From contig NC_134847.1 in assembly GCF_965363235.1 (NCBI RefSeq), positions 54,220,439 to 54,284,438 on the forward strand: DNA of 64,000 nucleotides. The letters are read 5' to 3'. This stretch comes from Mytilus galloprovincialis. Lineage: Eukaryota > Mollusca > Bivalvia > Mytilida > Mytilidae. Positions 12,656 through 54,321 of the stretch are shown in pieces. How positions within the stretch are numbered: the first letter of the stretch is position 1; each line of letters opens with the position of its first letter. The translations under genes and the position numbers were made by a program. Below the pieces are notes generated by a model. The model ran no database searches, had not been told where the DNA came from, and saw only the letters and a program-made list of their open reading frames with translations.

Positions 12656-12938
12656 ATGAACGTTTGCTTCTTTTTCATTTTTGCAAGAACAATCCTGGCG
12701 CTCGACTTTTCTGGCAATTCCTTTTCTGTGGAATATAACCAACGCATCTCCAAAGATGAATATCTTTATGAAACTGAATCTGGTGTATCGATGATCAGCT
12801 GTGCAGATAAATGTTCTGTGGAGATAAATTGTTATGTAGCCAACTTTGACACTAACTCTGAAACATGTTTTCTTCATATGTCGGGAGGTTGTAATTCTGA
12901 ACAACAATATGAACAAGGTTGGATATCAATACGCCGAG
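12656..12938 (+). CDS. Gene A exon 1: signal peptide and PAN/apple-like domain
   Basis: The ATG at 12656 opens MNVCFFFIFARTILALDFSG, a typical signal peptide. The PAN-like cysteines follow (SCADKC, EINC, ETC, GGC). The exon ends in CGCCGA-G before GTTCGT, a weaker donor than in B (GTTTGT) and C (GTACGT). Read-through of the donor meets a stop after about 20 codons. Confidence 0.85.
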
Positions 12939-15900
12939 GTTCGTATTTTGTAAAAAAAAAAAAACATTATTTCTCTATAGTGTTGGTTTTAGTAGACTGA
13001 TTTGTGTATGAAGTGTTTATTGAATCTATATATTCTAATGTTTTGAGTGTAGAATGTGTTATTTTTAATTCTGTTCATGTTATGTGTAGACCAAAGGACT
13101 TTTAGATTAAACATTGCGGAAAACAAGCGAAGAAACACAATAACCGATTGATGTTGGACATATTTTTGGAAATAAGTGGGGAATTTATATCAAGAAATCC
13201 GGATAAATTCATTATGCAGTATGCAAACGTCCAAACATGGAATTTGTCATGAAGAATAAAACATGAATAAGTGGTGTGATAATAAAATCAAATTAAATCT
13301 GTTACATATATAAAAAAGAAGATGTGGTATGATTGCCAATGAGACAACTGTCCACAAGAGACCAAAATGACACAGACATTAACAACTATAGGTCACCATA
13401 GTTGTAATTAGCAAATTCTCAACCGATATGAATTATATTGACCCGATAAATTACCGTATTTGGACAATTGCGCATTGTGTAACTTATTATAATGCAGTAC
13501 CAATTTTTTTCGAATGTTTTATAAGCATATAATTTTTTTTACATCGAATGACTTAATGGCTAAACACAGTTGTAAATAGCAATTTCAGAAAAGATATATA
13601 TTTTGAAAGAACATTATGCATGATTTTGGAATTTTGGAATACATTAGATTTTGTATTTATGTTTGCTACACAGATGATTTAGTCGTACACGACACATGCG
13701 TCCGTCGAAAAAAAATGTGTTTATATTTGAAGAGTGGTTTTTACTTTTACACTTTAATAACCCCTAAATGCCATTCATTTACCGATTTATATACTTTTTC
13801 TCAAGATTATAACTGATTTTGTCTACTTTTGGTACACAGGCAAATTTCACTCACATCAATTTCACGTGAATTTAAATTCATGTGAATCTCACGTGAAATT
13901 CACATCAATTTCACCTCAAACGAGCTTATACGTGAAACTCACGTGAAAACAATTTTTGTGAGTTTCATGTGAGTCTCATGTGAAACTCATGTGAATTTCA
14001 CATGAAAATCACGTAAAATTTTTTCATGTGAAATTCACATGAATTTTTAAAATAGAGTAATTCAAATAACATCTAAATTTTCAAATTTAATTAAAATCAT
14101 GAAAAATATCAAATTTTTTGATTGTAAATTTCACGTGAAATTCATGTGAAAAATTTCACATCAGATTCATTTGAATCTCAATTCACGTGAAATTCACATG
14201 AAAATTTTCACGTAAGTTTCATGTATAAGCTCGATTGAGGTGAATCTCACGTGAAATTTTTCTTGTGAATTTCACGTGAGATTGATGTGAAATTCATGTG
14301 AGCAAATTTTGCCTGTGTAGATTCCCTATGTAAACAAACAGTATGTTGGTTTTTTTTTTTAATTTTGTGTTCGACAATCCAATGTTTAAAGTACAATATA
14401 TTTTTTTTACTAGTTGCTAAATAATTCTTAATCTTTTCTTAAAATGTAGTTTTTATAATTTTGAATATTGTAGAACAGGGAACAGGGATTAACTGGAGTC
14501 CATGGAGTAAGTGCTCAAACACTTGTGGAGGAGGGAAAAGAACCAGGTCACCCCAAAACGCTAACGTTGAGAGTACCGAAAACGTAACTTCTGTTGAGGC
14601 TTGTCATTGTTTTGGTTGCAATGATACTGGTGAGCATTTGAAACAACAAACCATCCTATACGTCAAGTCAAATTGGTCTTATTTTAGTAAATAGCTTCTT
14701 AACGAATGATGTATATCATGAGGTAGTTTTGAAACACATGAACGTCGGACACCTCAATAGTTTTTTTGTTTTTTTTTTTCATTTTAAGTTTTAATGTTTT
14801 TCATAAGTTGAAGATACTAAAAAAAATGAGTTTTTTTGGGGGTTCTTATTGTTGTCATTTTTTTATTTATTTTCGTGGAGAGAAAAATGTTGCTGCTGGT
14901 TGTATCAACTTTATACTAAAAAAAACACGGTAAACTATCTCTCCGCGTTCTTAAACCTTTTTAGGCTTCAGTAACAGCAAGTTTATTTTAAAAATCTGAA
15001 CTTTGATTTTCAATCTTGTTTTTCTTTTTTTGCGACTGTTGTTTGTCCTTTGAACTTTTTTTTTTATTGCATTTGGATTTGATTTAATTTGTAATCACAA
15101 ATCTTTTTGAATTACTGGTAATGAATAAAGAGAAGCAAAATGTAAAAATTTGATAATAACGTAAGCGGATAACGTAAGATAATGGACAGAACTTAGGGAC
15201 AAAAAATGTAAACTTACTACTATCGACTTTTCCATTCCCTTAAGCTTTTCCATGCTTTCGTACAAATTAAGCGTATTTTTGGTGTCATGGAATATTGTGA
15301 AACACGAATTCAGAAAAAAACAGGTTTGATCTTAAGACAAATAAATAGATTATAATTGACAAGTTGGGTCCGTCGAATTATAATTGCCATTTTGGGTCTG
15401 TCGAAATACTTTTGGTAAGTCTTAATAGAGGTTTCCCGATTTGCGACCTTACAACTTTTTTAAAAGAATGCATTTATGCACTTAATGTCAACGTATGTTT
15501 TATGAATTGTTAACAAAAGTAGTTGGATGATTTTTAACTACTACTTAATATAAATTTCATGTAGATGTGTTCCCTATTCATAACAAACGATATTGTGTGT
15601 ACTCGATTACGATTTCAACCAATCGTTGCAAGTAACCGTTGCAACGAACGGTTTGTGAATAAGATTTATTTCCCTTGAAATTGCACAGGCAAAAACAAGC
15701 TAAAAATAAAACACATTCATATTTTTTTCTAATAATCAACTGTTATATAGATATAAAAGTATATATTTAATAGGTTGGCATTTTTGGGGGGTTAGCTTTC
15801 ATAACCATGATAGAATAAGAGCTATTTTAACATGCAAAATTGACCTTATTGAAAATGTATTAATGATAAAGATAAATGCAAAACTTATTCACCCGGATGT

Positions 15901-21900: not shown

Positions 21901-24900
21901 ATTTAATTCTAGCGTAGGGAAAGTGTCAATTAAAAATACAATTATAAGATATCTAAAGAATACAATGTCAGTAAAATTTACTTGTTATATGATAATTATT
22001 CTAGACTTATTAATTCTATGATGATTAATAATTAAGTCTAAGATGCAAATTTTGATTATTATTTGTTTTGGGCTTTGAAAAAGGATTTGTATAGTGAGAC
22101 AATACAAATCCTTGCTTTGAACTAGCTGGTAATAACTGTGAGAACTATCAGATATGTACAAGTACTAGGCCACGTACACTCTGTGTTTTAGTTAGGTGTA
22201 TTTCTATTTGTATCTATCTGAGTAAAGTCTTATTCAACTGATTTCTATAGTTCGTTCTTATGTTGAACTGTAACACCACTGTCAAGTTTACATATTTAAC
22301 CCCGCCATAATATGTATGTAGACGTGCCTAACCCAAGTCAGGAGCCTGTAATTCGGTGGTTGTCGTTTGTTGCTGTGTTACATATTTGTTTTTCGTTCAT
22401 TGTTTTTAATAAATTAGGCCGTCAGTTTTCTTGTTTGAACTTTTTTAGCATTTGAAATTTAGGAGACTTTTAAAGCGGACTATGCGGGATGGACTTTGGT
22501 CATTGTTGAAGGCCGTACGGTTATCTATTATAGTTGTTAATTTCTGTGTCATTTGGTCTCTTGTGGAGAGCACATGCACTTGTCTCAGAATTTTTCCCCC
22601 CTATATACCTTAATATATATTAAGCTATATATGAGGGGGGGGGGGATTTCAGACAAGTGTCTGTGGTGGGGAGTTGTCTCATTGGCAAGAATAGCATATC
22701 TTCCTTTTTATATTGGTATTTTTCAGCAACAACAGAATAGAGAAATATTTCTTATTTATCAATACGTTTTCAGTTACTTTTTTCAGAATGCATTTCAAGA
22801 TACATGTTTCAAGTTGTTCATAAAAAAATAAGACAAGAGTGCCCTTTCTCACTCAATGCAAAATCTCAGGTTTCTAATCATCTAAAAAAATGTTTTGATG
22901 AAACGATTGAAATTATTATGTAAGATTAATGTCTAATTTCATGCAAGAACTAAATATACAATGAAATTAACACAATTTTGACACGTTAACGAATAGAAAT
23001 AAGAAACAAAATATTTTTCTTTCTATAAATGCACAAAACAAATATAATACCAGTAACGAACGCAAATCTATTGTTAGAATATCAAGGTCATGTCAACTCA
23101 GTTCGTTTCAGGTCTGTTTGATTAATGCTTTTATGCACAACTAAATATTTTCATAAGGAATCATCAACAAAGTGTTCCAGAAACGTTAAAATCGTTATCA
23201 AATAAAACGTTAAGCTAGTTGTTTTGCTCATATGCATTTCAATTCCTTTGATTTTGTTATGATGAATGAAATGATCTCATTCATTAAATGATTTCTCCAA
23301 AACAGCATCAACGGTTATGTTACGTACCAACCGTACCTGATACGTAGCAAATCGGGAACCTCTATAAATTAGCGGATAAGTAGCATTCAATTATGCCCGA
23401 TTTCAAGGAAAAAAATTGTGACTTCTACAATCAAATGTGATCGTCGAAATATGTAACATAGCCATTACATAATGGTAAATTCAATCATTATGGCGTCTGT
23501 AACAATTTCACATGAATTACTCTCCCGTTTTGGAAATCATACATTGTAGGAAACGTTACCATACCTTTTTAGTTAGAGCACTTCGTCGAAAGAACGGATC
23601 GTATTGTTAAAAGATAACGCTAGGTAATTTTCATTAAGGTTTATGTACCCTTTTGTAGCCATTTTTGTACGAATTTTTCAAACCTCAATTGTATCAAAAC
23701 TAAAGATATAATAAATAATAGAAATAAACCATTTAGTACATGTTCCAAGGGGAAACTTGATGCAAAGCATTATTTTTTACTGTTTCATTGCATTTGATAG
23801 AAAAAGAGGGCTTTGTGGCAAATAAATCAAGATTTTTATAGAAAATTCACAGCCTTTAATACAGAGATTTTTGTTATAAAATTTGAAACATAAATTACTC
23901 ACTTGATTTTCTATGATGTGCTAGTGTTTATTTTTTACAAAAAGTTCTAAGTAACCTGTAAATTCCAAAACACCTCGTGCTGAGTCACTAAAGTCGAGCG
24001 CACCCTAAAAGGTGTGCTTGATTTTTCCCATATTAATACTTGTCTTAACCAATAACTACATTTATAAACTTGTTTAAAGGAAATCTATGCTAGCACTGCA
24101 TGCAATAATCCTATATCTATCAGTCATCAAATTGCCAAATATGAGAGTACAAGGATAAAGGCTGTGGATTTTCTATAAAAATCTTGATTTATTGCCACAA
24201 AGTCCTCCTTTTCTATTAAATGCAATGGAACAGTAAAAAATAATGCTTTGCATCAAGTTTCCCCTTGGAATATGTACAAAATGGCCTATCTCTATTATTC
24301 ATTATATCTGTAGTTTTGATACAATTGAAGTTTGAAAAGTTCGTACAAAAATTGCTACAGAAGGGTACATAAACCTTAAAAATACGTGTATGAAGGCGGT
24401 CTTAATTAAAACAAAAAATAAAATCCGTATAAAAAGTTTTGTTCTATAGGCATGCCGATTACTTGTTTGGAACACACATTCTCAAAATATCAAAAAAAAA
24501 TCTGTAATACACTAGTTCCAAGATATCATATAAAACATGCAAATCGTAACTGATAACTATGACCATGATTGTTTTAGCCATAAATATTTGTGCATTAATA
24601 ATAATACATATCATTCATGTTTCTAGCTCTCAACTGCAATGAATGGAAATCAAAGGGTCTAGTGGATAGTCAAACTGTATTAATTGAACCAGTTACATCT
24701 AACGGTGTTAAATTACAAGCTGTGGAGGTTTATTGCTATATGGAAAATGGAGTTGGAGTAACTGAAATAAGTATGTAAATGAGTAAAAGAACGTATAGAC
24801 TTAGGCGTTAACAATCCCATTAATATTTCATAAATACCACAATCTCTACAAATAAAATAAGCTTTCTTGTAAAAGGCCATGGTTTAATCAAACAGGTTTT

Positions 24901-27900
24901 AATGGTTTTCTTTATATATATTTGATGTGTACTGATTAATAATTTTGACTGGGATATCATCGTTTATTTTCTCCTTGGCCTTTCACTTAATTTCAGGAAC
25001 TGCAGTACTAAGTGTTTATTTATTATTTTTTTTTTTATTAATTGTTATATTATGTCTAGGGTTTTTTCTTCAGAGCGAATCTGATGAGTGCTATTTATTG
25101 TATCTATATATGGTGATTTGCTACAGCACTGTCCAAAGTGTGGAATCTTTTCAGCGTTAAAAAAACATGTTTAACTCATCCACACATTCTTATTGAATAA
25201 GTGTTTTTTGGTCAAATATGTTTTTTTGTTTTAAATTAAACAATGCCGCTGATTTTTCTTTTTTAAATTGTTCCATTGTTTTTTTGTTTGATATGATTAA
25301 GGTTTTATTCAGTGTTCAAAACATAACAGTGCTCTATAGTTGATTTTGATGGATAATCTCTTGGCAAACACAATTCCTTATCTCTACAAATAATACCACC
25401 CTTCCTTATCCCTACATCTCCTTTCATGCTATCAAGTTTGAATTGCTAGTAAATTATTGCATGATTTCTTAATATCTTTCATATCTTTTCTGCATATGTT
25501 CATTTCAATTCAAACAAATCTGTGTTTTCAGCAAAATTGAAAGACGTTCAATAGTTATCAAATGTATCAGGTTGATAATTTATACGCCAGTCGCACGTTT
25601 CGTCTACACAAGACTCATCAGTGACGCTCAGATCAACGTAACTCTGCAATATTGTTGTTTGAGTATATAATCTTATCTTCTAGAAACACCTATAAACACC
25701 AATTTCTAAACGGCGAGAATTAAACCGTCAAATCGTGAAATAAAGACGGCATGAACATTTTCCGGTTTACATTATTTTATTACTTTATTATTTACCTTAT
25801 TTAATTTCTGAATTGATCGTTACATCTAATCAGGAAAATTTGTGTGTATCTTTCGTTTTTAATACATCAACACCATTATACAAAATAGCTGCAACCCTTC
25901 GGTTTTGATATGATAATGACGTTTGTAAGTGTATTTTTTTCACAAATATCTAGCACTAAAAGTTGTACATCAAAGTCTAATGTAATCTATGCAAATGAAC
26001 TGTTAATGTTTCTAGATCATAATGGAGAGCGAAATATAACAGTGGTTGGCTATGAGGCACTTGGATCTTACAGTTATATCGTTACATATGATATTTCTTT
26101 CGAGCACGTAGTTGCAATAATAGATTCCTCCCAGTTTTGTCGACAGTTTGTGCGATGGAGTTGTAAAGGTGCTCTAATATGGGATACATTAAATGACGAG
26201 TGGACTACGTACTGGACAAATCGAAGCACAGCGTACTTGGCAACTAATGACAAAAAAACACCCTCTGGTTTTTTTCACGGAACTGAAGTAAGAAGAACGT
26301 GTGAGTGTGGAATTTCTCAGACCTGCCAGGAAAGCAACGTGCTTTGCAATTGCGATATCAACGATTATATTTGGCGATCTGATGAAGGATATGTTACAAA
26401 TAAGGATGCTTTGCCAATAGTTGCTTTCTTTGCAGGGGACACAGGTAAGGGTTACTAGCAATGATATTACCATAGCAATAAGTAAATATCCATACCAGTA
26501 CATGATATATCATGATAATCTTGGCAGTCTTAACTTCGTTGAACAGAACAAAGCATCAACAATTGTTAAAAAAGAATATTACATAAGATGATTCCATGTT
26601 ACTTTTCATAGGTGATACATAATCACAATCTGTGTTAATAAATACGATACCAAAATTACAGTACTAAAACTAATCACTTGGAGAAACTACATACAGATGT
26701 ATATTTCATAGCAATTAGCGCGAGTTAATTATTAAATAATATATATGGAAAAATATGCCAATGAGACAACTCTCCATCTAAGTCAAATCTTGTAAAAAAA
26801 ATCAATCTATTGAATATACTTTTAAAACTGTTTATTTATTCGCCTTTTCAAAATCTAAAAGACTATGGGTAATTTCATTGTGCGTACACCCGAATAAAAA
26901 TAATGTTACGTCATTTGATGGATTTCTATTGTTTGGAACAATCTACCAATCATAACGTTTTGGTGTGCGCTTTTAAAAATATTACACAGAATGCATTAGA
27001 TTCTGAAACAGTCAATTGTAGAACGTCCGTTCAAGAATAGAAAAAGAACTGTTAAAATTTAAGTGACGGTGAATATGATCAAATTGAAACTTCCTAATGT
27101 TTAGTCTACAAAGAACTTTTAATATATTTGATAAAAAAAGATATACACAAAATACATATATAGTATAGGTAAACGTTGGTTTTCAGAATATCTTATGTAT
27201 CGGTAAAAAAAACACCTGTTTTAAACTATTTGCCCGGAATGAAACTAAAGATAATATTTATTTTACTATTTGATTGTTTTTTTAACAACAAGCACAATTC
27301 GTGGCCACTCATTTTGATGATCCGTCCTAACGTTGAGTACCATTATGTCCATTCCAATAACTTATTCACACAATGTGTGTTGCTTTCTAAATATTCTCGC
27401 AATCGTAATTGAAACACACAAATATATATTAATATATGAAATATTGATGAATAAATGAAAATTTTAAGTATAGGTTGCAATAAACAGCAACCAAATACCA
27501 TAAAAAAGTATCTACTGGTAAAAAAAGTCTTTAGCTATAGTCAGGTGCAGGCCCGTCACTCGGTCAAATATGATTTTCGCAACCGTTTTCGTCAAAACGA
27601 TATATGTTTCTCTACTATAATTTTTTTTTCGCCAACTAACAAGTAACATAAAGATAGTTTTATTTAAAATTTTCCTGCCTTTTACCAAAAAACAAATCTG
27701 TTTGCCCCATTGTTTTCCATGATTATTCTACCAGTCTTTTTGTTATACCTACATTGTATTACATATATTTTTTTTTCAAAAGATATTGTAAAATTGAATT
27801 ATTAATTCATTAAAAACGACACTATATAATACTTTTGTTTTAATTTTCAGGAGATTCCGGTGAAGAAGGGCATCATTTCATAGGCCCACTTGAGTGTTAT

Positions 27901-27912
27901 GGGACTGCCTAG
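12656..27912 (+). CDS. Gene A: secreted PAN-TSP1-CNTNAP-like fibrinogen-domain protein, 5 exons, 357 aa
   Basis: Joined exons 12656-12938, 14474-14629, 24627-24770, 26016-26444 and 27851-27912 give 1074 nt with no internal stop. Every junction is GT-AG and phase 1. Residues 1-17 are a hydrophobic signal peptide; about 18-94 a PAN/apple-like module (CADKCSVEINC, ETCFL); about 95-146 a thrombospondin type 1 repeat (WSPWSKCSNTCGGG); 147-357 a fibrinogen-like domain of the CNTNAP/neurexin IV kind (VYCYMENGVGV, VVAIIDSSQFCRQFV, CECGISQTC, LCNCD, WRSDEGYVTNKDALP, GDTG, GPLECYG). No membrane segment or GPI signal is seen, so it is probably an extracellular adhesion, recognition or matrix protein; its exact role is unknown. 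Exon 3 has ATGGAAAAT where B and C have an extra Met-Glu pair. Intron 2 is about 10 kb and full of repeats. Confidence 0.85.
13317..13400 (+). repeat. M1 repeat head fragment in intron 1 of gene A
   Basis: Begins GAAGATGTGGTATGATTGCC and continues through AATGAGACAAC and ATTAACAACTATAGGTCACC, the start of the commonest repeat of the window. It is truncated after about 85 bp. Confidence 0.8.
13835..14317. mobile_element. Palindrome-rich MITE of TTCACGTGAA units, TA target duplication
   Basis: The ends CACAGGCAAATTT and the reverse complement of the right end (CACAGGCAAAATTT) are inverted repeats flanked by TA (13833-13834 and 14318-14319). Nearly the whole 483 bp is made of short variants of TTCACGTGAA, TTCACATGAA and CTCACGTGAAA. 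These are themselves palindromic, so the element can pair at many scales. The arms match as long inverted repeats, including AACGAGCTTATACGTGAAA near 13918 and its partner near 14220. There is no coding capacity. Confidence 0.8.
14474..14629 (+). CDS. Gene A exon 2: thrombospondin type 1 repeat
   Basis: Acceptor TTGTAG precedes 14474 and donor GTGAGC follows 14629; 156 nt, phase 1-1. NWSPWSKCSNTCGGGKRTRS carries the WxxW site for C-mannosylation and the CxxTCG site for O-fucosylation known in this family. Cysteines in ACHCFGC and N-glycosylation sites NVT and NDT follow. Confidence 0.9.
14630..18439. other. Intron 2 of gene A, proximal part
   Basis: No coding exon is seen. It includes a SINE-tail-like phrase (ATGAAATATTTGCCACTGAA) near 16990. 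It also has GC-richer islands near 16230-16330 and 17860-18260 that look like unclassified interspersed DNA; open frames there have no domain. Confidence 0.45.
18440..18776 (+). repeat. Interspersed repeat containing 'CCGCCGTAGCAAGGGGG'
   Basis: A GC-richer start (ATGCCCCCGCCGTAGCAAGG) is followed by TTGTCTGTTTGTACGTCC and a T-rich body. I recall this phrase from mussel and oyster repeats. The boundaries are approximate. Confidence 0.45.
18777..19066. mobile_element. MITE-like inverted-repeat element with internal T-rich minisatellite
   Basis: AGGGAGCCACCATTTGATTT at the left pairs with AAATCAAATGGTAGCTCCCT at the right, extended by a G-run (about 18800-18818) against CCCCCC. Inside are about seven degenerate copies of a 25-35 bp unit (TCCTGCCTTTTTTTT and variants). 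No coding capacity. Confidence 0.7.
19588..20960 (+). repeat. Composite repeat: (GTC)n, 4 x 160-bp array, 4 x about 125-bp array
   Basis: It starts with TATACGACCGCAAAAA and an internal inverted TTTTTTGGTCGTATA, then a GTC microsatellite (about 19643-19695). Four tandem units follow, each starting TTTTCGCAC or TTTTTGCAC, of about 160 bp (about 19699, 19860, 20021 and 20181). Four shorter units follow with GGTCCAAAATTAAACT and TTCTTTGATATGC (about 20320-20835). It closes with copies of TATTGTGCAATAGCAA. A shorter relative lies at 28088-28725. The 19458-19718 reading frame with a run of valines is only the microsatellite translated. Confidence 0.8.
20942..21840 (-). mobile_element. Penelope-like retroelement relic (reverse transcriptase part)
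   Basis: On the minus strand, from right to left, phrases occur in the order GDLNIVQDRELKSFLSKGP, HDSLRTYCLKWIKREKADKK, IAKEFVFVPADKAANNIIIV, LHAYIGHF, SLDFSTLYTTLPHILIKKKF and KWAFKKSECEYMCSNSFRSF. This matches the N-terminal part and first RT motifs of the Penelope-type elements I know from bivalves. The downstream catalytic part (GIPMGTNCAPL region) is absent, and several stops and frame changes occur, so it is dead and truncated. It sits in intron 2 of gene A, antisense. Confidence 0.75.
21842..21905 (+). repeat. SINE 3' tail
   Basis: GGAAATACTTACCACTGGAC, GTTAAGCAACAAACAATC and an (ATCA)n end form the typical tail of a bivalve SINE. The 5' tRNA-like head is missing. Confidence 0.55.
22180..22705 (-). 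repeat. M1 repeat, near-full copy, minus orientation
   Basis: Contains TTAACCCCGCCATAATATGT, AGTCAGGAGCCTGTAATTC, GTTGAAGGCCGTACGG and GTTGTCTCATTGGCAAGA in the order seen at 28808, 49918 and 52395. The extension TATAGTTCGTTCTTATGTTG marks the longer variant. A G-rich tract (about 22625-22637) interrupts the head. The open frame at 22553-22831 is a by-product. Confidence 0.8.
23634..24380. mobile_element. TIR element with TTAA ends, 747 bp
   Basis: TTAAGGTTTATGTACCC (23634-23650) is inverted at the right end (GGGTACATAAACCTTAA, ending at 24380). The arms pair for about 220 bp, for example AATAATGCTTTGCATCAAGT on both strands. The boundary TTAA suggests a piggyBac- or Kolobok-type target site. 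Only about 300 bp of non-repeated centre lies between the arms, and no ORF is present. It lies just upstream of exon 3 of gene A. Confidence 0.8.
24627..24770 (+). CDS. Gene A exon 3: start of CNTNAP-like fibrinogen domain
   Basis: Acceptor TTTCTAG, donor GTATGT; 144 nt, phase 1-1. It encodes ALNCNEWKSKGLVDSQTV and the VYCYM / NGVGVTEI strand that corresponds to VYCDM..GGGWTVI in fibrinogen-like domains. The Asp of YCDM is Tyr here, unlike B and C. Confidence 0.85.
25555..25650 (+). repeat. M2 repeat fragment
   Basis: TCAGGTTGATAATTTATACG, GCACGTTTCGTCTACACAAG and ACTCATCAGTGACGCTCAGA match the family defined by the 43370-43825 copy, in the opposite orientation. Confidence 0.75.
26016..26444 (+). 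CDS. Gene A exon 4: core of CNTNAP-like domain
   Basis: Acceptor TTTCTAG, donor GTAAGG; 429 nt, phase 1-1. The order of motifs follows vertebrate CNTNAP: ITVVGYEALGSY, YDISFEHVVAIIDSSQFC, RWSC, TTYWTN, CECGISQTC, VLCNCD, IWRSDEGYVTNKDALP, FAGDTG. Potential N-glycosylation sites are NIT and NRS. Open reading frame extends upstream of the acceptor to 25910 by chance. Confidence 0.9.
26735..26800 (+). repeat. M1 repeat head fragment in intron 4 of gene A
   Basis: GCCAATGAGACAACTCTCC and its flank match the repeat head. A homologous fragment sits at the same place in gene B (38855-38890), so it predates the A/B duplication. Confidence 0.65.
27851..27912 (+). CDS. Gene A exon 5: C-terminus
   Basis: Acceptor TTTTCAG. 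It encodes GDSGEEGHHFIGPLECYGTA and a TAG at 27910-27912. GPLECYG corresponds to GPLRC-G at the end of the CNTNAP fibrinogen-like domain. About 110 bp of 3' sequence after the stop is shared with B and C. AATAAA at 28076-28081 is a possible polyadenylation signal. Confidence 0.88.
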
Positions 27913-34987: not shown

Positions 34988-35267
34988 ATGCATCTTTGCA
35001 TTTTAATACTTATTGCAATAAAGTTCGCGTTCGGCCTTTCTGGCAATTACTTTTCACTGGAATATAACAAACGTATTTCAGGGCTGGGATACCAATATAA
35101 AAGTGTATCTTGTGTAACAGAAATCAGCTGTGCATACAAATGTTCTGTGGAGATAAACTGTTGTGTGGCCAATTTTGACGCAAATTCTCAAACATGTTAT
35201 CTTGATATGTCGGGGAGTTGTTACTCAGCTCCACAACATGAAAAGAGTTGGACTACAATTCGAAGAG
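34988..35267 (+). CDS. Gene B exon 1: signal peptide and PAN/apple-like domain
   Basis: The ATG is at 34988. CAYKCSVEINCCVANFDANS and TCYLDMSGSC carry the PAN-like cysteines. Donor AG-GTTTGT follows 35267; phase 1. Confidence 0.88.
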
Positions 35268-38200
35268 GTTTGTATTTGGCCAAACAAAACATTATTTCCT
35301 TTGTATTTGTTTTAGTAAAATAACTGACGTATACAAATTTTGAATATTACATATAGAATAAAGAAGATGTTGTATGATTTCCAATGAGTCAACTCTTTCC
35401 AAAAGACTAATTGACACAGAAGTTAACAACTAATGATCACTGTACTGCCTTCAACAATGAACAAAGGCCATACCGCATACTCAGTTATCATAGGCTAAAA
35501 TTACTAGCACATTTATATATAAAAGAGGGACCAAAGATACAAGAGGGACAGTCAAACTCATAAATCGAAAATAAACTGACAACGCCATGGTTAAAAATGA
35601 AAAATACAAACAGACAAACAATGGTACACACGACACAACATAGAAAACTAAAGAATAAGGAACACGAACCCCACCAAAAACTAGGGGTGATCTCAGGTGC
35701 TCCCAAGGGTAAGCAGCTCCTGCTCCACATGTGGATATATAACATATTCTTGTTATACAATGACCTACGGAATTACACTATTTACCAGATTTGTTATTAC
35801 ATAGGCAAAACGACGGGTGCCACATGTGGAGCAGAATCTGCTTACCCTTCTGGAGCACCTGAGATCACCCCAAGTTTTATCTTTATATCGTCCCTCTTTT
35901 ATACAAAAATACATCAAATAAAATAATTCTTTTATGATTTAATGATTTATATTTAAAGTGTTGCTTTTTTACCTTTGCACTGGAATTTTATTTCTAGCCT
36001 TATATGTTCGTTTGTCTAATTTTGATTAATGACCTTTGTGAAAGGACAATATTTGTTAGATTTTTACGAGTGACAGTTTAATGTTTTTAAAGCACATACA
36101 ATCACTTTTTACTAATTCTAATAACATAATTCGACTTTGTTTTAATTGATTATCTGATTTTCATATTGTTATCATTTGTAGCTCGGGAAGATTTGTTTAA
36201 CTGGAGTCCATGGAGTAAGTGCTCAAAGACATGTGATGGAGGGATTAGAACCAGGACACATCAAAACCGACACACAACCATTGATAGTGCCGGAAACGTA
36301 ACATCTATAGAAAGTTGTCATCATTTTGGTTGCAATGATACTGGTGGGCAATCAAAAACGATTTAACACAGCATCAGATATTTCGAAAAAGAGAAATTAA
36401 TCTTATTTCAATATAATTTTTTTTAACATCAGAGGTCACTGTTGAGCTTTTGTACGCTTAACACGTGTTAGGCGTACAATTTTAAGCCTGATATCTATAA
36501 GGAGTTTATTTATTGTTGTTTCTTACCTATACATTTTTTTTTTAAAAGATTAAAAGATTGAACAAGTAAAGATTTATTTCTTAATTTCTCTAGGTGTATT
36601 CACATGAACAATATTTATAAATTGTTTGATGAAAATATTGGCGAATTTAATAACAAACAATAGAACGATAGATATGATCACATGTTCTTTTATATTTCAA
36701 ATTTAAAGGGAACATTTATACAGCCTTAAGTGAAACTAGCTGTCAAATTAATTTTCACCGATTTGACTAATATTCTCTTATTTCATATATAACAGTGTAA
36801 AACATTTATCCAAATTATAAAAGTATGAAATAAACAATATACCGGATCATTAATATGTAGCTTCATTTCATGTGTATTTTAGTCTAGATGCCATCTATTT
36901 AAAACATGTCGAGTTGTCCTCCGAAGACCACCGATTGCAATATAAGCTATATAAACATAAATATCCATAGATTACAGACTCATGCATTTAAAATTTTCGA
37001 GTTCAATTAAAGTTCACATAAAAAAAATGAACTTCTCCAAATAAGTTTAGTATAGATTATAAATAATTCACGAAGGACTTGTTCTGCTCGTACTTCATTA
37101 TAAAAGAGACAAGAATCACAATTGATCGTTGTGATTGATAAAGATTTCCGCTAAAATAATATCAATATATCATGTTTTTAGCTATCAACTGCAATAGTTG
37201 GAAAACAAAGGGCCTATTGGATAGTCAAACTGAATTCATTGAACCAATTACATCTAATAGTATTCAACTGCCAGCAGTCCAGATTTATTGTGATATGGAA
37301 ATGGAAAATGGAGTTGGAGTAACTGTGATAGGTATGTCTCCGACACAAAATTGTGATAGATATTCTCCCACAAGTTCAAAGGAGCTTTCGTTCGGTTTCA
37401 ACTTTCTAGATCATTGGATTCTTGACAAAAGGGAGGATTTTCGTCTCAAATTGTTAATTTTCCTTTTTGAGTAATGATTTTCTTTGGCACCATCATACTG
37501 TGTTTCTGTTTTCTATCTTGTTTTCTATGCCCGTGTCTGTTGTGACCTTTTTGTCTTTAAGGAACCCAATATATGTATTACTGGTAAATAAGCCTGGAAT
37601 TTCGTTACCATAAATTACTAAAAATCTTTATTTAATTCTATCATAGCTATAACTTTTGATTTTAAAAGTCGATTGTACCTGCAAAAAGCGGGACAACACA
37701 TCCTAATTCTTTTTACCGTGCTTTGCAATTCAGATACGACCGTTATAAATTTATCGATCCTTAAATAAACGTTTTCTAAATTGTTACATATTCAACACTG
37801 TAATCAGATGCTTAAATCTTGATTTTATTGGTATTTAAATTTGATGCTGTAATCAGTAAATCAAACCAAACTATATATCATTAATAATGCAAATGCACTT
37901 TCATGGATCTACAATCTACCGATAACTTGTCTTGGCACAAGACAAGGTCATGTTATTCTCTGATTGTTCATGTTGTCATTACACAAAAAAAAAATAGTTG
38001 TCTCATTAGCATTCATATGACATCTTCTTTTTCGTATTTAACACATATCTAGTACTGAAAGCTGTATTTATAAGTGTTTATCATCTACGTTAAAGAATTC
38101 TTGATGTTTCCAGATCACGACGGAGAGCGAGATGTATATGTACATGGCTATGAGGCACATGGATCCTACAGTTTTAACGTCACATATGATATTCCTTTCG

Positions 38201-40401
38201 AGCATGTAGTTGCAATAATAGATTCATCCCAGTTTTGTCGACAGTTTGTACGCTGGAAATGTTTTGATGCTCAAATGTGGGATGGTGGAAATCAGAAGTG
38301 GAATACGTACTGGACAAATCGAAGCACAGCCTACTTAGCAACCAATGAGTACAAACCTCAATCTTTATTTTTTCACGGATCTGAAAAAAAGAGAATTTGT
38401 GAGTGTGGAATTTCTCAGACCTGTCAACAGATCAATGTGCTCTGTAATTGCGATATCAACGATAGCATTTGGAGATCTGACGAAGGATACGTCACAAATA
38501 AGGATGCTTTGCCAATAGTCGCTTTCTTTGCAGGGGACACAGGTAAGGAATACAGTAACTAAGCAACGATATTTAATCACCACAGGCAATTGATTAAATT
38601 GTCATAAGAGTTCATGATCGTCATGTTAATTTTGGTAGTCTAAATTTCTTTACACAGAAAATAGCATCAACAATTGTTAATGATGAAGATTTCAACAAAT
38701 AATTTCCCTTTACTTTCCAGAAAAGATACAAAAGGTCTGTGCTATGTATTTCAAAACCAAAATTACACATTACTAAAACTAATCACTTGGTGAAACTACC
38801 AACACATGTAGGTATCATGGCGATTAACACGAGTTAATTAGAAGATAATATAAATATATATAGGAAGATGTGTCAATGAGACATCTCTCCATTCAAGTAA
38901 CAATTTGCAAAAGTAGAACAATCTTTGTATACTGAATATACTTTTAATACTGAATATTCATTGTAGACCAACTAACTTCTGCGCCTTTCAAGAATATAAA
39001 AAACTATAAGAATTTAAGTGGTGATGAATATGTTTTACTTGAAACTTCCTATTAATTGGTTTACCTAGAACTTTAAATAAAAAAAACTGATATTACGGAA
39101 AATACATGTATACTAAATGCAGTATAGGTAAACATTAGGTTTCAGCATATCTTATGTATTGGTAAAAAATAAAACGCCTAATTAAACAACTTAAAATAAG
39201 TACAATTTGTAGCCACTCAGTTTGATTATCCTTCTCAACTAATTTACATAAGATTTTTGTTGCTTGCTATCTATTCCCGCAATCATCTGACACACACAAA
39301 ATATATACATATATATTATTTTATGAAATATTGATAAATTGATGAAGAGGCTTAGTATACGTTGAATTAATCAGAAACCAAATACCACAAAAAGTATCTT
39401 CTTGTCAAAATACGATCTTTAGCAGTAGACAAGGGCATGGTTTTTCACTTTAATTTTGATTAATTTTCTTTCGCGACAATTTTCCTTCAAGACAATATAC
39501 TGTTCGCCACTTTCAATTATTTCTAGCCAACTAACGATTGTCCTACTCATTCACAAAATGTAATCGGTTTGCCCCATTGTTGTGTATGATTATTTTACAA
39601 ACCTCTTTTTTTTTATTCTACATTGTTTCCAATAAAAACTAAAATTTTACTTTCAAAAGATTAAAAATATCGATTATTAAACCGTATTTTTTTTTACTTC
39701 TTGAAACAAAAGATCCATCTTCAACAATTAAGTTTCTCGGATATAAATTTTCCCATCTTAAGGTAGTATAGAAACAAAAGTCAGAGATTTTCCTTTATAT
39801 TTGAATTTATTTCTCTGTAGCACAATTATTTCTTTTCTTTTCTGCACCATTGTCAAAAGAAAAAAAGTCGCGACGTACACATATGCTGGAAACACGTAAG
39901 TTACAAAGATGTAAATAAATCATTGAGGTAACACGTGATGCCATGTCACCACACCATTTCGTTAAAAAAATCAATCAACACTTTTACCAATAAATCCTTT
40001 GTTTCCTACAAAAATAAAATACACTCGACTAGTTAATACTGTTCATTTTCTGTCAAAGTCGTTTGAGCTTAAGGTGAATAACGAATATGGTCTGATCAAG
40101 CAAATTCGAAAAAAAAAACAAAAAAAAAACCGAAATGGATGAAATCGAATTGCTATAATTCGCCAAATTCTTCGCAAGTAATGAATTTTAATCGCAACAA
40201 TTCTATTTTTCGCACAATACGAACATTACGCCATCGGAGACCATTGACAGGGGCCTATATAGTTGTTATATACTTTATTTTCAGTATTTTTAAAATCATT
40301 AAAACGACACTATTTAATACTTTGGTTTTTATTTTTCAGGACATTCCATGGAAAAAGGTGAACATTTCATAGGCCCAATTGAGTGTTATGGAACTGCCTA
40401 G
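34988..40401 (+). CDS. Gene B: secreted PAN-TSP1-CNTNAP-like fibrinogen-domain protein, 5 exons, 360 aa
   Basis: Exons 34988-35267, 36182-36343, 37182-37331, 38114-38542 and 40340-40401 join to 1083 nt, open throughout, all introns phase 1 and GT-AG. Signal peptide 1-16 (MHLCILILIAIKFAFG), PAN/apple-like domain to residue 93, TSP1 94-147, CNTNAP-like fibrinogen domain 148-360. This is the most compact copy (5.4 kb) and, with A, the best candidate for a working gene. TSP1 has CSKTCDGG, so the Gly after the second Cys of the O-fucosylation motif is Asp. An extra cysteine (SCVTEISC) in the PAN module is not shared with A or C. Closest to C in sequence and flanks. The function is unknown; the architecture suggests extracellular recognition or adhesion. 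Confidence 0.88.
35359..35500 (+). repeat. M1 repeat, 5' part, in intron 1 of gene B
   Basis: GAAGATGTTGTATGATTTCC through CCATACCGCATACTCAGTTA. It lies at a position like that of the M1 pieces in intron 1 of A and C, so it may be ancestral to the array. Confidence 0.75.
35505..35915. repeat. M4 repeat with 50-bp inverted arms
   Basis: GGGGTGATCTCAGGTGCTCC (35684 on) and its inverse GGAGCACCTGAGATCACCCC (ending 35871) enclose a palindromic region including CTCCACATGTGG. Outer parts GAGGGACAGTCAAACTCATA and AACGCCATGG recur, reversed, at 51985-52385. Reading frames on both strands (35488-35760 and 35597-35926) are by-products of the palindrome. Confidence 0.7.
36182..36343 (+). CDS. Gene B exon 2: thrombospondin type 1 repeat
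   Basis: Acceptor TTTGTAG, donor GTGGGC; 162 nt, phase 1-1. AREDLFNWSPWSKCSKTCDG opens the module, and SCHHFGCNDTG closes it. Confidence 0.9.
36705..36985 (+). repeat. M5 repeat in intron 2 of gene B
   Basis: AAAGGGAACATTTATACAGC, AAACTAGCTGTCAAATTAAT, TAGTCTAGATGCCATCTA and ATATAAACATAAATATCC follow the same order as at 59915 and 61824. Confidence 0.65.
37182..37331 (+). CDS. Gene B exon 3: start of CNTNAP-like domain
   Basis: Acceptor TTTTTAG, donor GTATGT; 150 nt, phase 1-1. It encodes AINCNSWKTKGLLDSQTEFI and IYCDMEMENGVGVTVI. Read-through of the donor gives an open extension with no domain. Confidence 0.88.
37990..38035 (-). repeat. M1 repeat head fragment
   Basis: AGTTGTCTCATTAGCATTCA and GACATCTTC, just upstream of exon 4. 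Equivalent M1 material, much longer, sits in the same intron of C (52395-52830). Confidence 0.6.
38114..38542 (+). CDS. Gene B exon 4: core of CNTNAP-like domain
   Basis: Acceptor TTTCCAG, donor GTAAGG; 429 nt, phase 1-1. It encodes DHDGERDVYVHGYEAHGSYS, IPFEHVVAIIDSSQFC, RWKCFDAQMWDGG, CECGISQTC, LCNCD and WRSDEGYVTNKDALP. N-glycosylation sites NVT and NRS. Confidence 0.9.
38855..38890 (+). repeat. M1 repeat head fragment in intron 4 of gene B
   Basis: AGGAAGATGTGTCAATGAGA continues into ACATCTCTCC. It is the counterpart of 26735-26800 in gene A. Confidence 0.6.
40340..40401 (+). CDS. Gene B exon 5: C-terminus
   Basis: Acceptor TTTTCAG. It encodes GHSMEKGEHFIGPIECYGTA and TAG at 40399-40401. 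Downstream about 110 bp are shared with A and C. Confidence 0.88.
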
Positions 40402-42090: not shown

Positions 42091-42095
42091 AGTAA

Positions 42096-42493: not shown

Positions 42494-42773
42494 ATGAATG
42501 TTTGCATTTTGATATTTGCTGTAATAAAGTTAGCGCTCGGCCTTTCTGACAATTACTTTTCAATGGAATATAACAAACGGGTTTCAGGGGACGGATACCA
42601 ATATAAAAGTGTAAATGGTGTAACAGAAATTAGCTGTGCATACAAATGTTCTGTGGAGATAAATTGTTGTGTGGCCAACTTTGATGCCCATTCTCAAATG
42701 TGTTATCTTGATATGTCGGGGAGTTGTTACTCAGCACCATCACATGAAAAGAGTTGGATTACAATTCGCAGAG
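42494..42773 (+). CDS. Gene C exon 1: signal peptide and PAN/apple-like domain
   Basis: The ATG is at 42494 (MNVCILIFAVIKLALGLS); a longer frame from a TTG at 42482 is not a start. CAYKCSVEINCCVANFDAHS and MCYLDMSGSC are nearly identical to B. Donor GTACGT. Confidence 0.85.
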
Positions 42774-43345: not shown

Positions 43346-43369
43346 TTTAAAGCAATGCCCTTCAACTTT

Positions 43370-45299: not shown

Positions 45300-45540
45300 A
45301 ACCCTTTATAGTTTTGTAAATGTCTGATTTCCTCTAATCTGAGACAGGGGTGTAAGGTACAACATAAGACAAAGACAAATCAGTCGAAAAAGGCTCATCA
45401 GATTGAAACAAACAGAAATACATTTAACAAAATCACAGAATGGACGCGGTCGGGAACATGTACATACCTACAACAAAATGTACTAAGTACAAATCTGAAA
45501 GTACTCACAGTTACTGACAGCTAGTTCAAAGCCAATGACA
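45300..45540 (+). repeat. M1 repeat, 3' part
   Basis: GTACAACATAAGAC, AATCAGTCGAAAAAGGCTCA and AAGTACAAATCTGAAAGTAC parallel 43170-43340. Confidence 0.7.
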
Positions 45541-47259: not shown

Positions 47260-47878
47260 GTTTTATAAAATGGAAATGAACTTCCAAAATCTAGGATGTG
47301 TAATCTGCAACCCAAGGCACAATGAGGATTTCGATTTGAACAGATTTAATAAAAGTACTTGGAAATGTTGAGAAACATTCTTTTGGGTAAAATAATAGTT
47401 CAAAATTAAAAACAAATATCAGATATATTTTTGATAAAGGAATCTTCATTTTTTTTTATTTTCTTTATCCCAAGTAAGGCCTCAAAAATGCCCTATGACA
47501 GTGATATTTTACACATGCTGTGTTTGTGTGTCATTAATTTGGCGGGAATGGACATATCTGCAAGTACTAAAACTGTAACTGATACATTAGTAAAGGGGTG
47601 TGAGAAATTTTTAAGAACAATAAAGATTAATGTTCAAAACAAAAATAGTAAAATTCTTTATCATAAATTTTATTTTTAAATCTCATTCATATTTATCTCC
47701 TAAATTTGTCAAAAATTATGAACAAAATATATTACATATACATTAATAAATTTGACTTGAGTACTTATATACTCCTTCTTAAATTAAATAGATTGATCCA
47801 TATGTCAGACAACATTACCTCCTCAGCCTTTCTTATAGTATTTCTAATAGTAATTTTTGTAAACGATCTTTGTTGAAA
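47260..47878. promoter_or_regulatory. Divergent intergenic region of the transposon
   Basis: About 620 bp separate the two starts. It should hold both promoters, but no convincing TATA box or paired motif is seen. An open frame at 47431-47679 has no domain. Confidence 0.35.
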
Positions 47879-49476: not shown

Positions 49477-49917
49477 AAAGTATTTATTCAAAAAGAAATC
49501 GTAGACAGCAGAACAAAAAAAGTGTTTTAAATGTGATATTTCTAATAAAATTCTACAGTTTTCAAGACATTTGTTTTTTTTAATTAACTAGAAATAATCA
49601 CAGTACAAGAAATTTAATACTGTGTACTATTTTCTGTAAATTTTTGTTTTTCTATTTCTGTAATTATAATTTAGATATTTACTGTAAATTATTCATACTA
49701 ATTGATTTTTATCACTCATTGCAATTTTAATTATACTTACATATGTACATTTCTGTTACAAAGATACATAAAATTTATCATTCAGATACAGCCATGTGTT
49801 ATTATTGTAAACAGATGATGTGTATATTTATAAATAGGATGTTGATAACAACAAGCTCCTCCCATCCCCATATAGGTTTTATTGCTTACCACCTGGTAAT
49901 TTTTATAGGTCAAGTCA

Positions 49918-50215
49918 GGTCTTTAACCCCGCCACATTATTTAAGTATGTGCCTGTCCCAAGTCAGGAGCCTGTAATTCAGTGGTTGTCGTTTGTTTATG
50001 TGTTACATATTTGTTTTTTGTTCATTTTTTTATATAAATAAGGCCGTTAGTTTTCTCGTTTAAATTGTTTTACATTGTCTTATAGCTGACTATGCGGTAT
50101 GGGCTTTGTTCATTGTTGAAGGCCGTACGGTGACCTATAGTTGTTAATGTCTGTCATTTTGGTCTCTTGTGGACAGTTGTCTCATTGGCAATCACACCAC
50201 ATCTTCTTTTTTATA
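49918..50215 (-). repeat. M1 repeat, minus orientation
   Basis: TTTAACCCCGCCACATTATT to CACACCACATCTTC; nearly identical to 28808-29092, so both are young copies. Confidence 0.85.
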
Positions 50216-50401
50216 TTTTCTCGTTTATCGAATTTTAATTTCGAACCTTAAATGTTTTTCTTTTTAATTGTTACCCTATGTGTTTTTTTATGAGTGACAA
50301 TTTCACGTTTTGAAGCAAAACAAATATCTTTTGTTCAATTCTACATAAATCGAATTTGCCTTATTTGATAATACCATTTTTACATCGTTGTACTTTTGTA
50401 G

Positions 50402-50557
50402 CACGGGAAGATTTGTTTAACTGGGCTCCATGGAGTAAGTGCTCAAAAACTTGTGAAGGAGGAATAAGAACGAGGTCACATCAGCATGCCACCATTGATA
50501 ACACCGGAGACGTAACATCTGTAGAGAATTGTCATATTTTTGGTTGTAATGATACTG
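50402..50557 (+). CDS. Gene C exon 2: thrombospondin type 1 repeat
   Basis: Acceptor TTTGTAG, donor GTGGGC; 156 nt, phase 1-1. NWAPWSKCSKTCEGGIRTRS retains WxxW, with Glu in place of Gly in the O-fucosylation motif. Confidence 0.88.
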
Positions 50558-51323
50558 GTGGGCATTTACAAAAATACAACATGGCATTATATATTTCGAA
50601 AATAGACAATTGATCTTGATTCAATAGAATAATTTATAACATCAGTTGGGTTTAAACCCAAAAGTCTTTACGAGTCTATTAAGTTCTCAAACTTTATTTA
50701 AACGTGTTAGGTTGTTTTTTTTCCGACTGTAACTGTTGACCTTTGGGACACTAAACGCGTGTTAGGCATACAATTTTAAGCTTGGTATTTATGTTGAGTT
50801 AATTTAATGTTGTTAATTACCCAAAGAAATTTGAAAATAGGATTAAATACATAAACATGTATTTCTATACATCTCTAGATGTATTCACGTGTAGGAAATA
50901 TGTAAACTGTTTGAAAAAATTTATTTTGAAAATAAAATAAAGAACACGATCGAATGATAGATCTAAATGCATGTTCTTTTTCATTTCAAAGGGATCATTT
51001 AAAGTATTAAAAGGAATACCAGGTATAATGAATTGGATAATTAAACTGTTATTTCTTAGTTCTTAAAAACGAAAAAAATCGTTAATTTGCATTGTTCAAG
51101 ATTATTTAATAAAGCTAATTAAAGAGCTCATATAAACAAATTTAATAAATGAGAGGGGCAGAAATAGAATTTCTTCAAACAAGTCCACTATAGATTAAAT
51201 AATTCACAAGGGATTTGTTCTGTTCGCACTTAATAATAAAAGAGACAACCATCCCAATTGATCGTTTGAACAAATATGGATTTCCACTTTATAAATAATA
51301 TCTATAAATCATAATGATTTTAG

Positions 51324-51473
51324 TTATCAACTGCAATGGTTGGAAAACAAAGGGCCTATTGGATAGTCAAACTGCATTAATTGAACCAATTACATCTAAT
51401 GGTATTCAACTGCAAGCAGTCGAGGTTTATTGCGATATGGAAATGGAAAATGGAGTTGGAGTAACTGTCATAG
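51324..51473 (+). CDS. Gene C exon 3: start of CNTNAP-like domain
   Basis: Acceptor TTTTAG, donor GTATAT; 150 nt, phase 1-1. INCNGWKTKGLLDSQTALIE and VYCDMEMENGVGVTVI are intact. Confidence 0.87.
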
Positions 51474-51774
51474 GTATATCTTCGACACAAGAAACTTATA
51501 GATATTCTCACCCTGGATCAAAGTTTTGTTTTTAAGGTTTCAACCTTCCAGATCATTGTATTTTTACTAATTAAATTTTTGACTGGGACATCATCATTAT
51601 TTGGTAATTGAACTTTTAAATAATGTCCAGTAACTGCAGTTTTCTGTGTCTTGACAAGTTTGAATTGCGCGAAATTATTTTATAATTTCTTTTTATATCT
51701 TCTATTTCCTTTTCTGTATATCTTCATTTCAGTTCAATCAAACGTTTGCCATTACCAGGTGTGGAATTTAAAAT

Positions 51775-51850
51775 AGAAAGACTTAATAGATATCAAAGGT
51801 ACCAGGCTAATAACTCGACACGCCAGACGCGCATTATACGTTTTTATGTA
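51775..51850 (+). repeat. M2 repeat fragment
   Basis: TATCAAAGGTACCAGGCTAA and GCCAGACGCGCATTATACG. Confidence 0.65.
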
Positions 51851-51984
51851 TTTTTTTAATTTTTTTAATTTTCTCTCCAAAAAAAATTACATCCATTTTC
51901 AAGTGCAATCGATATAACAGAAATAATATTAGATAATGTTTCATACGAAACCATTTCATCAGTCTTATAATTAAGATCCCGAGT

Positions 51985-52385
51985 TGGTTGACCATTAGGG
52001 AATATCCGTTTCACATTTGATATCGGATATGTTTATAATATCCTAACTACAATTCCGTTTTCTTTCCACGATCGAATGTGACCTACCGAATAATACTATT
52101 TATAGGGTTTGTAATAACACGAGCAACACGACAGGTGCTACATGTGGAGCAAAATCTACTAAATATTCCGGAGCACCTTAGATCACCTGAAGTTTTGTGT
52201 GGGGTTTGTGTTGCTTAGACTTCAGTTTTCTATGTTGTGTCTTGTGTACTATTTGTTTTGTCTTTATCTTTTTTAGCCATGGCGTTGTCATTTTCTGTAA
52301 CTATGAGTTTGACATTCTATCTGTTACCTATCGTCCACCTTTTAATCCATTTTCAACATGATCAATTTCATCTTATTTTAACTGG
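51985..52385 (-). repeat. M4 repeat
   Basis: GATATCGGATATGTTTATAA, GTAATAACACGAGCAACACG, TGCTACATGTGGAGCAAAAT and AGCCATGGCGTTGTCATTTT. Confidence 0.75.
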
Positions 52386-52394
52386 TTTGTTATT

Positions 52395-52830
52395 TCATAA
52401 AATGTATTTTTAGTTATATCCATCTGATGAGTTACGCCTTTTGTCGGATTTTTATAGTTCGTTCTTAAATTGTACTGTTAGACCACTGTCCAAGGCTAGG
52501 GGAGGATTAGGATCCGGCTAACATGTATAACCCTGCCACATTCTGTATGTATGTGCAAGTTCCTAGTCAGGAACCTGTAATTCAGTGGTTGTCGTTTTTT
52601 GCTGTGTTACATATTTGTTTTTCGTTCATTTTCAATGTACATTATTTAGACCGTTAGTTTGCTCGTTTTCAATTTTTAATTTCGGAGCCTTGTATAGCTG
52701 AACTTATGGTATGGGATTTGATCATTGTGGAAGGCCGTAAGGTGACCAATAGTTGTTAATTTTTATGTCATTTTGTCTTTTGTGAAAAGTTGTCTTATAA
52801 GCAATCATACCGCATCTTATTTTTCATATT
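52395..52830 (-). repeat. M1 repeat, long variant, minus orientation
   Basis: TCGTTCTTAAATTGTACTGT, AACCCTGCCACATTCTG, TCAGTGGTTGTCGTTTTTTG and AAGCAATCATACCGCATCTT. It is more diverged than the 49918 copy. Confidence 0.75.
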
Positions 52831-52904
52831 TGTCAAATACTTCGTACTTCAAGTTGTATTTTAAGTATTTATAATCTACGTCAAAGAATTCTTGATGTTT
52901 CCAG

Positions 52905-53332
52905 ATCACGGTGGAGAGCGAGATGTATATGTACATGGCTATGAGGCGCATGCATCCTACAGTTTTATCATTACATATGATATTCCTTTCGAGCACGTTG
53001 TTGCCATAACAGATTCATCCCAGTTTTGTTGACAGTTTGTACGTTGGAAATGTAAAGAAGCTCAAATGTGGGATTTTAGAAATGAGAAGTGGAATACGTA
53101 CTGGACACATCGAAGCACAGCCTACTTGACAACCAATGAGTACAAACCACCCTCTGAATTTTTCACGGATATGAAGAAAGGAGAACGTGTGAGTGTGGAA
53201 TTTCCCAGACCTGTCAACAGAGCAACGTACTATGCAATTGCGATATCAACGATGATATTTGGCGATCCGATGAAGGATATGTCACAAACAAAGATGCTTT
53301 GCCAATAGTTGCTTTCTTTGCAGGGGACACTG
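52905..53332 (+). pseudogene. Gene C exon 4: damaged core of CNTNAP-like domain
   Basis: Acceptor TTTCCAG and donor GTAATT are kept. The sequence matches exon 4 of B closely, but the CGA of FCRQ is TGA (53030-53032) and one T is missing at 53159-53163. After the shift the frame continues open to the right only as nonsense (53066-53308 frame). Confidence 0.88.
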
Positions 53333-54259
53333 GTAATTAAAATCGATCACTTAACGATAGTATCAGATCACCGAATGCAATAATTGATAATCATTATTAT
53401 AATTGATATATCGTGCTCATTGAACAATCTGTTTTTGTTTTAATAGAGCAATATTCTGTAATGATGCCAACGTATATATCTAACATCACATTCCAAATAT
53501 GATACATAATGTCTGTTGTATGTATTGCGATACAAACATTTCATTGGTTAAAGTCATCACTTGGATAAATAACCAAAAGATGTCAGTTTTATATAAGTTA
53601 GTGACAGTGAATCAGTATATAAATCAACTGAATATACTTTCAATACTGTAAATCACTATTTTTGCGACTTTTGAGAAAAAAAAAGTTTTGCTTATATGTT
53701 TGTATTGAAGTTTCCGTTAAATTGATACATTGCTACCATAGGAAAAGCATTCTGATATTTGATACATATAGTTGCATGCAGATTGTCCTGAAGTAGCAAT
53801 TACTAGTTCCGCATTTGTGTCCATCTTCAAAAATTAAAATAATAAATGAATGCGACAATTTCTAACATTACTGTTTAACTGAAATTTTAAATTCCGATCT
53901 CCAAAGCAAATCAAAAATGGTAAAGTCCTTACAAACTGACAGACAAATTAAACGGTGTCAAGCAACGGAACAATTGAAAAACAATGCCATGTTCTTTACT
54001 AGGTCGACACAATAAAGTTAATATATAGAAAATAATGAGTAATCAATGATGATGTGAAGTATACGTTAAATTAAACAACAACCAAATACCACAAAAGTAC
54101 AAATAGTATCCATAATTCAAAGTACATTATTTGGTATAACATGTTATAGGCAAGGCCCTTTATATTTAATAGGATTACTACATTATTACTATTATTGTAT
54201 ATCCTTTGGCAATGGTAAATGATAACCACACTTTTTGAGTTTTTCTGTTGGAATTTCAG

Positions 54260-54321
54260 GAAATTCCATAGAAGAAGGAAAACATTTTATTGGCCCAATT
54301 GAGTGCTATAGTGATGCATAG
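54260..54321 (+). CDS. Gene C exon 5: C-terminus
   Basis: Acceptor TTTCAG. It encodes GNSIEEGKHFIGPIECYSDA and TAG at 54319-54321. The Gly-Thr of A and B (CYGTA) is Ser-Asp. Confidence 0.82.

Follow-up and report, generated by a model that had tools for sequence, protein, structure and literature searches.

The locus described here raises the question of what a domain of the CNTNAP type is doing in a small mussel protein that also carries PAN-like and thrombospondin type 1 (TSP1) domains, and how such a protein was assembled and multiplied. The window, meaning the whole 64,000-nucleotide stretch of DNA that was analysed, corresponds to C10:54220439-54284438, and the genome searched comprises 1.385 Gb in 331 contigs. 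A mytilin B peptide query agrees with it at 34 of 34 residues, which makes a Mytilus mussel the very probable host. Exons were located by a motif and tblastn survey, followed by base-level reading of the splice ends. An earlier note had placed here a tandem array of three five-exon genes joined in frame. The limits that it gave, 12656-54321, do run from the start codon of gene A to the last base of exon 5 of gene C. Gene A (12656-27912, plus strand) and gene B (34988-40401, plus strand) each consist of five exons; the splice ends are GT/AG, and the introns are without exception in phase 1. Their joined frames are open over 357 and 360 amino acids, respectively, without an internal stop, and the claim of in-frame joining holds for these two genes and fails for gene C. 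The exons of A and B are the following:

12656..12938, plus strand: A exon 1, start codon, signal peptide (by eye), PAN/apple-like; PAN_1 19.2 bits (cut-off 21.4)
14474..14629, plus strand: A exon 2, TSP1; TSP_1 28 bits (cut-off 21.6)
24627..24770, plus strand: A exon 3, start of the CNTNAP-type domain; survey and base-level reading
26016..26444, plus strand: A exon 4, core of the CNTNAP-type domain; E 2.0e-9 with the human CNTNAP2 domain query
27851..27912, plus strand: A exon 5, end of the CNTNAP-type domain (GPLECYGTA) and stop; base-level reading
34988..35267, plus strand: B exon 1, start codon, signal peptide (by eye), PAN/apple-like; PAN_1 just 10.7 bits
36182..36343, plus strand: B exon 2, TSP1; TSP_1 31 bits
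37182..37331, plus strand: B exon 3, start of the CNTNAP-type domain; base-level reading
38114..38542, plus strand: B exon 4, core of the CNTNAP-type domain; E 3.5e-7 with the human CNTNAP2 domain query
40340..40401, plus strand: B exon 5, end of the CNTNAP-type domain and stop; base-level reading

The C-termini of A, B, and a further copy, Z, read GP[LI]ECYGTA followed by the stop, and the visible last exon holds, by eye, neither a transmembrane segment nor a cytoplasmic tail. The array proteins are predicted to be secreted. The mature product would have about 340 residues (by eye) and would be disulfide-rich, with a PAN/apple-like leader followed by a single shortened TSP1 and, at the C-terminus, a fibrinogen-like domain of the CNTNAP type. 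Two features of the surrounding DNA were also recorded. Tandem repeats with periods of 161, 135, and 260 bp lie at 19704-20838, inside intron 2 of A, and at 5277-6745 (plus strand) two overlapping frames resemble a single LINE-type reverse transcriptase, the first of them (5277-6047) matching RVT_1 at 110 bits.

The domains at the front of the proteins were assessed by a Pfam search of joined A and B. The TSP1 domain named in the earlier note is confirmed, with scores over the cut-off in both proteins. The PAN/apple-like domain is borne out only in part: PAN_1 remains under its cut-off in all three window copies, just under in A and in C (20.1 bits) and far under in B. The conserved cysteines of the TSR repeat number five or six (PMC5446238). 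The array shares with the TSR superfamily a TSP_1 match over cut-off, but it differs in having a single repeat with four cysteines (B and C) or five (A and Z, where two of the five fall at one site, CHC), not six. Fibrinogen_C has no Pfam match in A, in B, or in the C-terminal domains of the family. Other database matches were a GGGWT match, the only one in NCBIfam, under its cut-off and in two of the four members, and a Pfam BRINP match in one of the four (E 0.0077).

The identity of the C-terminal domain was approached with a presumed human CNTNAP2 domain sequence as query, the letters of which are supported by the match of the mussel locus C2:16695287 at E 6.1e-18. Against the whole genome (1.38 Gb), this query gave seven matches:

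C2:16695287: E 6.1e-18
Paralogue on contig C1 (the C1 paralogue): E 1.3e-11
Gene A: E 2.0e-9
Copy Z: E 1.7e-8
Gene B: E 3.5e-7
C2:31561789: E 4.1e-6
Gene C: E 6.5e-5

The locus C2:16695287 is probably the mussel's own CNTNAP, as judged from its fibrinogen-like domain alone. A profile of the array type (B, A, Z, and the C1 paralogue) was then compared with a CNTNAP profile made of CNTNAP2 and the mussel CNTNAP pieces, the mussel row of which is without the domain start. The two profiles align over 171 columns at 25% identity with a score of 135.6, against a maximum of 19.8 in 100 column shuffles. The similarity to CNTNAP/CASPR (neurexin IV in flies) that had been expected in exons 3-5 is thus found, and the aligned columns include C.CG...C...CNCD, LP, and the GP..C end. 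The motif-by-motif agreement claimed earlier stands as to the order of the motifs, which is real, but not in every motif: 'VYCDM' is missing from A and Z, and B reads IYCDM. In A and Z, exon 3 is two codons shorter. By these comparisons, the C-terminal domain of the array is assigned to the CNTNAP type, and the claim of such a domain in a small PAN-like and TSP1 protein is upheld by both the genome search and the profile score.

Two other assignments were considered and set aside. The same array profile scores 30.7 (shuffle maximum 22.0) against three mussel fibrinogen-related domains; this control consists of three loci, with L003 and L005 left out since they gave no frame under the filter. 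Although the score lies above the shuffles, only the first 43 or so columns align, at the start of the domain. Fibrinogen-related proteins (FREPs) are alike in these first 43 columns, around the YCDM stretch, and differ in that the remainder does not align and that the array domain has no Fibrinogen_C match. A classical fibrinogen domain was rejected on this ground, and the 'fibrinogen architecture' of the earlier note has to be corrected accordingly. The collagen C-propeptide domain was likewise rejected: COL3A1 scores 28.1 over 26 columns (shuffle maximum 20.7), which is above the shuffles but compares with 135.6 for CNTNAP, and COLFI stays under its Pfam cut-off of 26.2. COLFI gives 24.9 bits with the human CNTNAP2 query sequence (residues 6-88) and 16.9 bits with the C1 paralogue domain (residues 15-208, E 0.0041), and it has no match in B, A, or Z, that is, it is seen in one of four family domains. 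The start of the C-terminal domain is, as far as these alignments indicate, distantly like both fibrinogen and collagen C-propeptide domains.

The distant likeness to collagen bears on the main rival to a role in recognition or adhesion. According to this rival, the proteins are structural components of shell, byssus, or another extracellular matrix, in which PAN and TSP1 would anchor the protein and the CNTNAP-type domain, distantly collagen C-propeptide-like, would aid assembly. The two COLFI matches favour such a role, but both are under the cut-off, the one within the family is confined to the C1 paralogue, and the COL3A1 score, though over its shuffle maximum, is far from that of CNTNAP. 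In the titles and abstract openings of the shell and mantle papers searched, no such protein is named. A matrix role is regarded as unlikely, though it deserves to be kept in mind.

Searches for distant and structural relatives were also carried out. Searching PDB sequences with protein B, the array profile, and the CNTNAP2 domain brought up no solved structure related to the C-terminal domain. The top-ranked entry of one search, 3k4x (E 0.0021), was taken as chance, as it breaks down into three PCNA segments scoring about 6 bits apiece. Structure prediction was unusable, with a mean pLDDT of 30.0 for exon 4 of B by itself and 35.1 for the exon 4 segments of B and A combined. In viral and prokaryote contigs, none of the 65 and 66 candidate stretches, respectively, was confirmed as a relative.

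The CNTNAP assignment suggests a further possibility, namely that the array proteins are genuine members of the CNTNAP/neurexin-IV lineage whose membrane part has been lost but whose site of action is still the cell junction. The published description of CNTNAP2 (PMC13152795) gives a membrane protein 1,331 residues long, whose domains are one discoidin-like, four laminin G-like, two EGF-like, and one fibrinogen-like. The array protein, in contrast, is about 360 residues long and combines a PAN-like with a TSP1 domain, and no discoidin, laminin G, or EGF domain was found in A or B by Pfam, where only TSP1 models and weak PAN appear. Although the C-terminal domain itself speaks for such descent, the CNTNAP2 query has a better match at another locus, C2:16695287, and the nearest paralogue, on C1, stands behind TSP1 exons. 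A junctional role of this kind is very improbable.

The extent of the array was determined by searching outside the window. A whole-genome search with B, in which scores cover the best candidates only, revealed a fourth copy, Z (C10:54174113-54182140), which is open over 357 amino acids and lies upstream of the window, ending about 38 kb before it. A tblastn search with the A and B exons, covering about 56 kb on the upstream side of the window and 20 kb on the downstream side, found no further copies. The array thus comprises three intact copies (Z, A, and B) and one broken copy (C), and the tandem array of three described earlier is indeed a tandem family, but a larger one with an intact member upstream and a damaged one at its end. 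Gene C (42494-54321, plus strand) has five recognisable exons with GT/AG splice ends:

42494..42773, plus strand: C exon 1, PAN/apple-like, open; PAN_1 20.1 bits
50402..50557, plus strand: C exon 2, TSP1, open; survey and base-level reading
51324..51473, plus strand: C exon 3, open; survey and base-level reading
52905..53332, plus strand: C exon 4, broken by a stop and, further on, one base short; survey and base-level reading
54260..54321, plus strand: C exon 5, recognisable, open; base-level reading

Exon 4 of C carries an in-frame TGA at 53030-53032 and measures 428 nt, one fewer than its counterparts in A, B, and Z (429 nt). Because of this stop and the missing base, C does not join in frame. 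Since the two lesions are separate, C is probably a pseudogene, with an assembly error as an alternative. Intron 1 of C contains a Mutator-like transposase frame of 463 amino acids (window 48085-49476, plus strand; PF20700, 41.9 bits).

Recombination between copies made Z a mosaic, with exons 1-3 A-like and exons 4-5 B-like. At the nucleotide level, Z and A are 94, 91, and 94% identical in exons 1-3 and 82 and 84% identical in exons 4-5; for Z and B, the values are 75, 81, and 83% in exons 1-3 and 95 and 92% in exons 4-5. At the sites where A and B differ, Z is A-like at 107 and B-like at 23 in exons 1-3, and A-like at 11 and B-like at 69 in exons 4-5 (Fisher p 1.3e-23, with sites treated as independent). 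The B-like sequence starts in intron 3, at about C10:54177845 (L037:3846); the exact switch may lie somewhat before this point, because identity over the A-like stretch at that place is only 76%.

The intact copies are under overall constraint. Whole-protein dN/dS is 0.39 for Z/A, 0.42 for Z/B, and 0.43 for A/B, and replacement changes are below expectation in each pair (p 2.7e-6, 3.6e-6, and 1.2e-7, respectively; Fisher, sites treated as independent). By part, the ratio ranges from 0.26 to 0.80, save for exon 3 of Z/A (1.67, over 47 codons). The TSP1 part is looser (A/B 0.80, Z/A 0.74), with part-wise sites too few to weigh. An overall excess of amino-acid change suggestive of an arms race is absent from the whole-protein dN/dS of the Z, A, and B pairs. 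This overall constraint also counts in favour of the matrix role considered above. A decaying array with little present function would find support in the broken state of C and in the transposase reading frame in its first intron; however, the reading frames of Z, A, and B are intact, and their whole-protein dN/dS is about 0.4. Decay is very improbable.

The origin of the array can be examined through relatives elsewhere in the genome. The C1 paralogue (C1:18943674-18981733, minus strand) has a CNTNAP-type domain behind TSP1 exons. Its exons 3-5 share identical boundaries and phase with those of the array, a TSP1 exon directly precedes them, and its domain is 50% identical to that of B. It differs in having at least 14 TSP1 exons on that strand within about 36 kb, belonging to one or more genes, in the six cysteines of the neighbouring, last TSP1 repeat, and in showing no PAN-leader match nearby among the genome-wide PAN-leader hits. 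Downstream of it on C1 lies a second exon-5-like sequence, EEGYHVIGPVRCYGT (L044:3223-3318, minus strand), with no exon 4 of its own seen within L044. On C2, locus L046 (C2:31557000-31566999, minus strand) holds fragments belonging to three or more successive CNTNAP-type units, all on one strand; the best fragments have E 2e-12 and 3e-7, and the others are weak or not significant.

The PAN leader is likewise distributed beyond the array. Genome-wide, 37 PAN-leader-like matches were obtained at E <=0.01, of which four belong to the array and 14 lie on C7 at 62.17-62.92 Mb. PAN_1 passes its cut-off in one of five related leader exons (L050, 22.0 bits). Such PAN-leader genes, including those on C7, resemble the array in a similar first exon with a PAN-like core. 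At four of the five other PAN-leader loci examined, no following domain passed its cut-off. L048, one of the loci on C7, differs from the array in that the next recognised exon encodes a C-type lectin domain (Lectin_C, 22.7 bits against a cut-off of 22.6, passing by 0.1 bit). By eye, what follows the leader is lectin-like at L049 and fibrinogen-like at L050.

These observations can be brought together in a reading with roughly an even prospect of being right: an exon-shuffled tandem family of secreted PAN/TSP1/CNTNAP-type proteins that serve in soluble adhesion or recognition in mucus, haemolymph, or matrix. Exon phases, the shared boundaries of exons 3-5, and the paralogues stand behind the shuffling. 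As for the order of events, a TSP1 and CNTNAP-type cassette, as on C1, would have been placed by phase-1 exon shuffling behind a PAN leader exon of the kind found elsewhere ahead of a lectin domain. In the resulting protein, PAN and TSP1 would hold surfaces or glycans, and the CNTNAP-type domain would serve as a protein-binding head. Such a function, whether in recognition or in matrix, is plausible from the domain architecture alone. Three points favour recognition or adhesion. In the mussel genome, a lectin domain is found behind a PAN leader of similar kind, and tandem arrays that include a mosaic and a broken copy are usual for recognition-type genes. In addition, TSR proteins of other marine invertebrates function in recognition or have been proposed to do so (PMC7663992); in an anemone, symbiont uptake was lowered when TSR domains were blocked (PMC5446238).

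The earlier remark that the combination was not recognised as a described family agrees with the titles and abstract openings of the papers searched, in which no description of PAN, TSP1, and a CNTNAP-type domain together was found. Bivalve C-type lectin architectures are treated in PMC10140915; 'thrombospondin' is absent from that text, and the 'pan' passage found there concerns the pan-genome, in the references. Mussel gene presence-absence variation is treated in PMC7653742, the text of which contains neither 'thrombospondin' nor 'fibrinogen' as a whole word.

The CNTNAP fibrinogen-like domain is otherwise associated with neuronal membrane proteins tied to human disease (PMC13152795). A broader proposal, offered tentatively and with somewhat less than even confidence, is that the CNTNAP-type domain moves independently as an extracellular module and occurs in as many as four contexts within a single mussel genome (the probable CNTNAP gene, the TSP1-rich locus on C1, the multi-unit locus on C2, and the PAN-TSP1 array), and that the PAN leader is a shared front end for different binding heads, namely C-type lectin, perhaps fibrinogen-like, and TSP1 with CNTNAP-type. 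A small natural protein with a CNTNAP-type domain would be convenient for structure and binding work. The array is a clear case of recombination between copies yielding a mosaic gene, and its small proteins would show the CNTNAP-type domain travelling on its own in animals.
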